Below, piece by piece: positions 1 through 1,103 of a stretch of DNA of 20,134 nucleotides. The stretch comes from a virus. The stretch is taken from the IMG/VR virus record IMGVR_UViG_3300017697_001529, positions 1 through 20,134 of that record; one strand, written 5' to 3'. Below the pieces are notes generated by a model. That model was not told the DNA's origin and searched no databases. It saw only the letters and a program-made list of their open reading frames with translations. Within the stretch, counting starts at the first letter, position 1. Every line of letters begins with the position of its first letter. The translations under genes were made by a program, and so were the position numbers.

Positions 1-126
1 CTAGCTTCTTCTGCAATCCTAGCTTCTTCTGCAATCCTAGCTTCTTCTGCAATCCTAGCTTCTTCTGCAACCCTAGCTTCTTCTGCAATCCTTGCTTCTT
101 CTGCAATCCTTGCTTTTTCTGCATCG
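1..126. repeat. 18-bp tandem repeat, about 7 copies, coding
   Basis: Seven consecutive 18-bp units begin at 1, 19, 37, 55, 73, 91 and 109. The consensus on the plus strand is ctagcttcttctgcaatc. The first three and the fifth are identical, the fourth has one change, and the last two drift (cttgc). Read on the minus strand each unit encodes I-A-E-E-A-R in frame with the FN3 protein. The array very likely continues past the left edge. The gradient from identical to diverged copies suggests recent expansion by slippage or unequal recombination at the edge side. Confidence 0.95.
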
Positions 127-752
127 AGCATTGCCTGCTCTTCTTTCTCTAGCCTTAGCCTTTCAGCTTCTGCATTACGAGCGGCCTCTTCTTCTGCTGC
201 TTTTTTCTTAGCTGCCTCTTCTGCCTCTTTCTCCTGTCTCTCTTTTTCTGCCAACCTAGCTGCCTCAGCCTCCTGCTCAGACGCTAACCTTGCAGCCTCT
301 TCTTGCTCGGCCAGTGCGGTTTCACTGTCTACAAAAGACTGTTCTACAGTCGTGACGACAGTACTTGACCAATCGGAGTAAGCCGCTTGAGAATCATTAT
401 CTGATCTAACCTTAAAGCTAAACGTTCCAACACAATCAGATACGCCAAATAATGATTGGAAACTTTCGCAGCTGAACAAGTATTTAGTATTCAGGGCTGT
501 GCTATCTCCAACATTTCCAGTGGCTACAGCATAAGTGAATGAATCGTCCGCTCCAAAAAAAATGGCATACCTCTCAGCACTTAGAGACCCCGTATTAGGA
601 TCGTCCCAAGTGATAAGAATAGTACCTTCAGAATATTCTGCTATGACGTTTTCTGGGGCACTTACCAATGACGCCGCAGCCGCTGGGCCTGCAATAAACA
701 CAGGGCCAACGGCTAACAGGGAAATCGCAAATAGAAGATAGACTCTTTTAAT
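1..752 (-). CDS. Secreted FN3-like plus coiled-coil protein, 3' end beyond window, ATT start
   Basis: The frame is open from an in-frame TAG just upstream to the left edge, at least 250 residues. It starts K-R-V-Y, then a hydrophobic stretch LLFAISLLAVGPVFIAG and AAAAS, a textbook Sec signal peptide with cleavage near residue 27. Residues about 33-137 look like one fibronectin type III fold: ITWDDP early, RYAIFFG in the middle, FKVRSDN and YSDWSSTVV near the end, plus two cysteines that could pair. From about residue 145 it is Glu/Ala/Arg/Lys-rich and should form a long coiled coil or single alpha helix, ending in I-A-E-E-A-R hexapeptide repeats. No ATG, GTG or TTG lies in frame before the hydrophobic core. 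An ATT at 752-750 sits 5 nt after AGGAG, so I infer ATT initiation. It follows the holin-like gene. A surface, virion-fibre or lysis-accessory role is possible, but the function is unknown. Confidence 0.75.
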   Translation of the reverse strand, partial: MKRVYLLFAISLLAVGPVFIAGPAAAASLVSAPENVIAEYSEGTILITWDDPNTGSLSAERYAIFFGADDSFTYAVATGNVGDSTALNTKYLFSCESFQSLFGVSDCVGTFSFKVRSDNDSQAAYSDWSSTVVTTVEQSFVDSETALAEQEEAARLASEQEAEAARLAEKERQEKEAEEAAKKKAAEEEAARNAEAERLRLEKEEQAMLDAEKARIAEEARIAEEARVAEEARIAEEARIAEEARIAEEA

Positions 753-757
753 TTTAA

Positions 758-762
758 CTCCT
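758..762 (-). promoter_or_regulatory. Ribosome binding site that fixes the ATT start
   Basis: AGGAG on the minus strand is followed by 5 nt (TTAAA) and then ATT at 752-750. No other start-like codon in the frame lies at a workable distance, and the downstream residues begin a signal peptide. This is why the start was placed at 752. Confidence 0.65.
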
Positions 763-786
763 AAAAAAATAGCAGACTAATGCTAT
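763..786 (-). terminator. Weak rho-independent terminator or attenuator after the holin-like gene
   Basis: On the minus strand ATAGCA (786-781) and TGCTAT (774-769) form a 6-bp stem with a 6-nt loop, followed directly by six further T. The stem is short with only two G-C pairs, so termination would be partial. It ends at the ribosome binding site of the FN3 gene, so it could lower read-through into that gene. Confidence 0.45.
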
Positions 787-799
787 AAGTTTTAGTTAT

Positions 800-1039
800 T
801 TAGTTATCATTTGCCTGAGAGGCATTTTCAAAAGCCTGCTCAACTTCATCTTTTGTCAGCTTACCATCTGCAATGTAAGCACGGGCCATGTCATCTAATA
901 CCTGACCAACACCAATGAAACCAGCAATGACTAGCGTTTTCCACCATTCAATATCAAGAATTGCACCGCCAGCAAGGACAGCAAACACATTCACAACAAA
1001 AACAGCAAACATACGACCAATTAAATTAAAAACAAACAT
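800..1039 (-). CDS. Small membrane protein, holin-like
   Basis: This is a 79-residue protein with two hydrophobic segments, about residues 5-28 and 35-48, separated by a short polar turn with W32-W33. A charged, soluble C-terminal tail of about 30 residues follows. Small size, two membrane segments and a charged tail fit phage holins, and a secreted protein gene follows directly. No endolysin is visible in the window, so lysis function is inference from shape only; another small phage membrane protein is equally possible. The ATG at 1039 is preceded by AAGGAA about 10 nt upstream. The gene diverges from the SNase gene across a 101-bp regulatory gap. Confidence 0.6.
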   Translation of the reverse strand: MFVFNLIGRMFAVFVVNVFAVLAGGAILDIEWWKTLVIAGFIGVGQVLDDMARAYIADGKLTKDEVEQAFENASQANDN

Positions 1040-1057: not shown

Positions 1058-1088
1058 ATAATAGTAGAATAACTACTAATACTATTAT
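1058..1088. promoter_or_regulatory. Nested inverted repeats with two alternative hairpins in the divergent gap
   Basis: ATAATAGTA (1058-1066) and TACTATTAT (1080-1088) are perfect 9-bp inverted repeats with a 13-nt loop. Within them, TAGTAG (1062-1067) and CTACTA (1073-1078) make a 6-bp stem with a 5-nt loop. The two stems share bases 1062-1066, so only one can form at a time. In the minus-strand transcript they lie just upstream of the ribosome binding site of the holin-like gene. The repeats are seen; a switch or operator role is inferred. Confidence 0.4.
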
Positions 1089-1103
1089 ATCCCTATGTTT
1101 AAA

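Follow-up and report, generated by a model that had tools for sequence, protein, structure and literature searches.

We find that ATT and ATA start codons recur within a single family of phage genes, which encode secreted proteins with an FN3 domain, and this recurrence is what is new here. One member lies at the edge of the window, the whole 20,134-base virus record analysed here, and very probably starts at ATT 752-750 on the minus strand. The explanation that we favour, and consider likely from the comparisons below, is that this gene belongs to a lysis locus and encodes a secreted FN3-stalk protein, and that its weak AUU start serves to tune translation down.

The gene content of the window (including NrdA/B/I, terminase, IMPDH, RecA, a DnaE-type polymerase, primase and helicase) and its few DNA matches to Streptomyces phages point to an actinobacteriophage as the source. 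Among named phages, the FN3 protein matched only Actinomycetia phage DSL-LC01, a lake phage with Actinomycetia as its predicted host (PMC10611076).

An earlier note on this DNA had placed the gene at 1-762 and credited its product with a Sec signal peptide and an FN3-like domain. The frame is indeed open there, but coding starts at 752, so that 762-753 are leader, and the gene runs past the window edge. Both protein features were recovered. The signal peptide was recognized by inspection from its hydrophobic core and Lys/Arg n-region and ends in AAAAS, and the FN3 domain is supported by family profile matches and by an AlphaFold model (pLDDT 94) with FN3 structures among its top Foldseek matches; the Pfam fn3 profile gave no match to the window sequence alone. 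In the stalk, an 18-bp tandem repeat (1-123, 6.8 copies) encodes EEARIA, and the record ends within it. Across the family, a signal peptide is followed by one FN3 domain and then by a stalk that is of low complexity or of the EEARxA type; either the C-terminus carries hydrophobic segments, or a separate small membrane protein is encoded just downstream. We note that a small membrane protein of the WTLLGxFIAWVVLEGSAK type follows the FN3 gene at L046:6454-6624 and L051:3121-3294, and that a similar segment forms the C-terminus of the FN3 protein itself in L031, which suggests that these two parts work together.

Table 1. Features of the FN3 gene and its surroundings, in window positions.
Feature	Position	Strand	Basis or detail
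Secreted FN3-domain protein gene	1..752	-	Open frame, Shine-Dalgarno sequence, homologues; 3' end beyond window
Charged Ala/Glu/Arg-rich stalk	1..341	-	Translation
FN3 domain	342..656	-	Profile matches to FN3; AlphaFold/Foldseek
Sec-type signal peptide IKRVYLLFAISLLAVGPVFIAGPAAAAS (putative)	669..752	-	By inspection: hydrophobic core, Lys/Arg n-region
ATT (AUU) start codon (very probable)	750..752	-	Only near-cognate near Shine-Dalgarno sequence; kept in L003; ATT/ATA/NTG site in family
Shine-Dalgarno AGGAG	758..762	-	Sequence; identical in L003
Leader hairpin (predicted)	756..800	-	Inner stem 786-781/774-769, then 7-T run; outer stem 795-790/766-761; fold and L003
79-aa holin-like membrane protein gene	800..1039	-	ATG start; near FN3 genes in many loci
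TATAAT-like -10, candidate promoter of holin-like and FN3 genes	1084..1089	-	Sequence match only

The ATT start of the window gene is well supported. Read on the minus strand, the frame runs TAG (779-777) TCT GCT ATT TTT TTA GGA GTT AAA ATT (752-750) AAA AGA GTC. As the earlier note had claimed, the Shine-Dalgarno (SD) sequence AGGAG (762-758) lies 5 nt ahead of the ATT, with TTAAA as spacer, and no in-frame ATG, GTG or TTG occurs between the upstream stop and the signal peptide. The earliest in-frame NTG is GTG 701-699, located 17 codons past the ATT and inside the hydrophobic core, while ATT 752-750 is the sole in-frame near-cognate codon at a usable SD distance. Among the 27 genes listed in the window, only the FN3 gene is without a usable canonical start. 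An AUU-started gene should have AUU as its only in-frame start behind a properly spaced SD, and should keep the site in homologues. We find both for the window gene: the homologue alignment that the earlier note had proposed reveals ATT in the close homologue L003 and ATG, TTG or ATA in the same column in more distant relatives.

This close homologue (L003, IMGVR_UViG_3300000101_000135) comes from a separate metagenome and was the sole one in the collections searched. It was reached via the holin-like neighbour, which is 91% identical between the two contigs, and the other relatives via FN3 alignments. Its FN3 protein shares 68% identity with that of the window over signal peptide and FN3 domain. 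The start region of L003, AGGAGTTAAA ATT ATT AAA AGA, retains SD and ATT with one ATT more than the window, and AGGAG-TTAAA-ATT is identical in both. Downstream of the start, the indels between the two have lengths divisible by three; ahead of the SD, there is a one-base difference in the T-run. Other searches were less productive: the window N-terminus as a protein query against viral contigs gave no matches, an exact DNA motif search returned the known relative and three loci that seemed unrelated on inspection, and SNase-neighbour, holin and FN3 queries against genome_contigs found no relatives.

The comparison with L003 also bears on two other readings of the frame. Translation could begin at the internal GTG, leaving the upstream frame untranslated and the signal peptide incomplete; in favour of this, the GTG is the earliest canonical start, and L003 has it too. 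We consider this very unlikely, as the GTG has no SD and lies within the hydrophobic core, no NTG lies in the vicinity in other family members, and the codons ahead of it are under coding constraint (pN/pS 0.16/0.33 for codons 2-17 and 0.19/0.38 for the rest of the gene, on small numbers). As the window comes from an uncultivated virus, the ATT might instead reflect a sequencing or assembly error from ATG, or the gene might be a decayed remnant. Such an error is extremely improbable, as the same ATT is present in the independent and clearly diverged L003 contig and the start regions of L093/L094 and L123/L124 are repeated on separate contigs; decay is equally hard to credit with pN at about half of pS.

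Similar starts recur in the family. FN3-domain profile searches of IMG/VR, with up to 80 loci per search, allowed us to assign starts in 58 members from frame, SD and signal peptide, roughly where an SD is absent: ATG in 20, TTG in 19, GTG in 8, ATT in 7 (window, L003, L044, L088, L089, L093, L122) and ATA in 4 (L081, L103, L119, L123). Besides the window and L003, nine more members thus bring ATT/ATA to 11 of 58. A clear SD (AGGAG, AAGGAG, GGAG or GAAAGGA) precedes ATT/ATA by 5-9 nt in 9 of the 11, the SD being imperfect, weaker or distant in L093 and L081. In most of them Lys/Arg-rich residues come next and lead into a hydrophobic core, with an AxA-like end after it. Downstream, the first NTG is 9-169 codons away, and five of the nine further members have none for at least 38 codons. 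In a gap-free alignment of ten members (L035, L032, L040, L038, L034, L043, L053, L127, L103 and L119) the start column holds ATG three times, TTG five times and ATA twice; similarly, the relatives L122 and L123 have ATT and ATA, respectively, at the same place. On a tree of FN3 domains, 9 changes are required to explain the ATT/ATA state, and well-supported branches force at least 7 of them; gain cannot be distinguished from loss on this tree, and signal peptides may recombine apart from FN3 domains.

We note two further observations on individual members. In L044, whose N-terminal query matched itself alone and which thus offers no close relative with which to compare its ATT, an out-of-frame ATG GCC CCC TAT TAA (L044:2961-2975) overlaps the ATT start, where an error in the C5 run or a +1 shift could matter. 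Separately, L081 carries a second, apparently ATT-started gene (L081:585-884; GGAGG AATAAT ATT TTT TTA GAA GTC), and its homologue in L078 reads ATG AAA CTT GAA GTT, with the ATG exactly at L081's ATT.

A canonical start upstream in another frame, joined to the coding frame by slippage or frameshifting in the T-run of the window and L003 or at ATG GCC CCC T in L044, would also account for a missing NTG. In its favour, L003 has an in-frame upstream TTG, absent from the window, before a T8 run, and the out-of-frame ATG of L044 precedes a C5 run. Against this, the TTG of L003 has no SD, and no NTG in any frame lies close upstream in the window or in most ATT/ATA members. Six ATT/ATA members, furthermore, have a TATAAT-type -10 at 35-44 nt before the start, a spacing that would hardly accommodate another start codon upstream. 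Slippage is accordingly, in our judgement, highly improbable. The internal GTG, the upstream TTG of L003 and frameshifting were each considered and judged unlikely on the absence of SDs, pN/pS and the absence of NTG codons.

The excess of ATT/ATA was compared with other frames of at least 120 aa on the same loci (n=352). Under a mechanical rule, requiring an SD-supported ATT, ATC or ATA and no NTG in the next 12 codons, 7 of 59 family frames and 5 of 352 control frames scored (Fisher p=4e-4). After hand-checking, the counts were 11/58 and 1/352 (p=2e-9, with relatives that are not independent samples): in four of the five control cases a later ATG offers a plausible start, and the fifth is the L081 gene with ATT in place of L078's ATG. 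Of 334 SD-like sites within the other genes on these loci, 21 (6.3%) were followed 4-9 nt later by an ATT/ATA in frame. Given this low frequency and the preservation of SD and ATT in L003, their combination in the window is not attributable to chance.

Canonical starts in the family also lean to TTG and GTG where an SD supports them. ATG makes up 7 of 21 SD-supported canonical starts in the family vs 126 of 154 in controls (p=1e-5). This bears on whether the ATT, although real, is neutral, with start codons drifting and a weak start having no regulatory meaning. In favour of drift, about a third of the family starts with ATG, which shows that the gene can do without a weak start, and the tree has about 24 start-codon changes overall. 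However, other genes on the same contigs show a far weaker shift from ATG to TTG, GTG, ATT and ATA, and the family leaders are unusually structured. We therefore regard neutral drift as rather unlikely, and a weak start that tunes output down for a reason as probable.

The structure of the leaders was seen in the window itself, where the hairpin that the earlier note had placed just upstream of the start was confirmed by folding (755-800, -10.0 kcal/mol, z -2.7; z -1.9 in L003). Its outer stem starts 5 nt past the stop codon of the holin-like gene and pairs the first two SD bases, so that pairing of the SD is only partial in the prediction. Between the window and L003 the loop is altered and the stems are unchanged, with no compensatory base changes in the pair, and a consensus terminator scan requiring at least 3 G-C pairs did not list the window hairpin. 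Across the family, 45-nt leaders have a mean z of -1.09 (40 members, relatives not being independent) vs 0.04 in 101 control genes (p=1e-5); within the 40 members, folding did not differ clearly between ATG and ATT/ATA starts. The earlier note's reading of deliberate low or regulated expression stands in part: low output fits the excess of TTG/GTG over ATG and the structured leaders, and a deliberate or conditional character is something that we only infer.

Promoter-like elements are also found close to the FN3 genes. The extended -10 motif TGNTATAAT occurs in 12 of 60 upstream intervals of the family vs 0.003 expected per interval, and is likely a phage promoter. It lies, often as ATAAAATGNTATAAT, ~15-55 nt ahead of the FN3 frames in L088, L089, L093, L122, L123, L095, L100, L120, L126 and others. 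The window FN3 gene has no such close -10 promoter and comes after the holin-like gene. In L042 (2376-2396, GAGGAGTAAATGTTGTAA) and L061, a strong SD with the minimal frame ATG TTG TAA stands just upstream of the FN3 gene and is possibly a leader minigene.

The neighbourhood suggests what the protein might do. Compared with Pfam and PHROG holin families as a candidate r1t-type holin, the holin-like protein has a weak match to the holin family phrog_443 (E 0.0035); its best match is phrog_26427, and the nuclease label of that family looks like a misannotation for a small membrane protein. Of 40 loci examined, 20 have a holin-like homologue near the FN3 gene, and endolysin domains (Amidase_2, CHAP, VanY, M23 with PG_binding_1) lie close by in several loci. 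Adjoining holin and endolysin genes, the mark of a lysis cassette, are thus seen across loci, the window itself showing the holin-like gene only. Whether the FN3 protein acts in lysis is, on this evidence, about evenly balanced; of the possible roles, we favour that of an envelope-spanning lysis accessory, comparable in place to LysZ.

Returning to the weak AUU start that we favour, the strong SD would position the 30S subunit correctly at AUU, and the mismatch between AUU and initiator tRNA, checked by IF3, would make initiation inefficient. The hairpin just past the holin-like stop codon may partly occupy the SD, and we infer that a ribosome terminating on the holin-like gene probably opens it, coupling both genes. 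The outcome would be a low, tuned output of a Sec-exported protein, probably one that spans the envelope and assists in lysis. A more elaborate version, in which AUU/AUA initiation is repressed with ample IF3 and rises late as the IF3:ribosome ratio falls, forming an IF3-gated timer with leader hairpins coupling to the holin gene, we regard as improbable.

ATT/ATA starts are usually seen as isolated curiosities. Here, an FN3 family of aquatic actinobacteriophages repeatedly gains or loses them, with a strong SD kept and the codon weakened, and thereby offers a natural setting in which to compare start-codon strengths as a means of dosage control. Such starts are also an annotation blind spot: as the earlier note had anticipated, routine callers would miss or shorten these genes, and since calling limited to ATG, GTG and TTG removes the signal peptide, secreted proteins look cytoplasmic or get missed. 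In our partial coverage of the literature, no paper title on an AUU/ATT-started phage gene was found.

The earlier note had called ATT starts very rare, with infC as the known case; AUU starts are, however, also known for pcnB in E. coli and cvfC1 in S. aureus (PMC13009471), and ATT/ATA is recurrent in this family. E. coli infC, which encodes IF3, and pcnB resemble the window gene in starting at AUU, from which initiation is expected to be low and sensitive to IF3. They are host genes, in contrast to a phage gene for a secreted protein whose divergent family repeatedly has ATT/ATA in the same position. S. aureus cvfC1 (AUU) and ccpN (AUA) share with the window gene a strong SD and an AUU/AUA kept in relatives, and such starts gave about 10% of the AUG yield in reporters (PMC13009471). 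Those two genes are chromosomal with a conserved non-canonical start, whereas the phage FN3 family switches between ATG, TTG, GTG, ATT and ATA. In the actinobacterium Streptomyces, sigR likewise has a non-canonical start that holds output down, a GTC repressed by IF3 (PMC5472188); it differs in codon and in encoding a sigma factor, and the IF3 control established for sigR is here a proposal. For E. coli mutants of infC fidelity, rises of 3-15 fold are reported (PMC5472188). On the side of the product, corynephage LysZ is similarly a phage-encoded envelope protein proposed to aid lysis outside the membrane; compared by description, it has 177 aa and one TMD, and the part of its description that was available mentions no FN3 domain or cleavable signal peptide (PMC13056207). 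The nearest named counterpart, WJZ48438.1 of DSL-LC01, has a homologous FN3 domain (45% identity), a signal peptide by inspection and a holin-like homologue in the same region, but is 945 aa long and starts with ATG.
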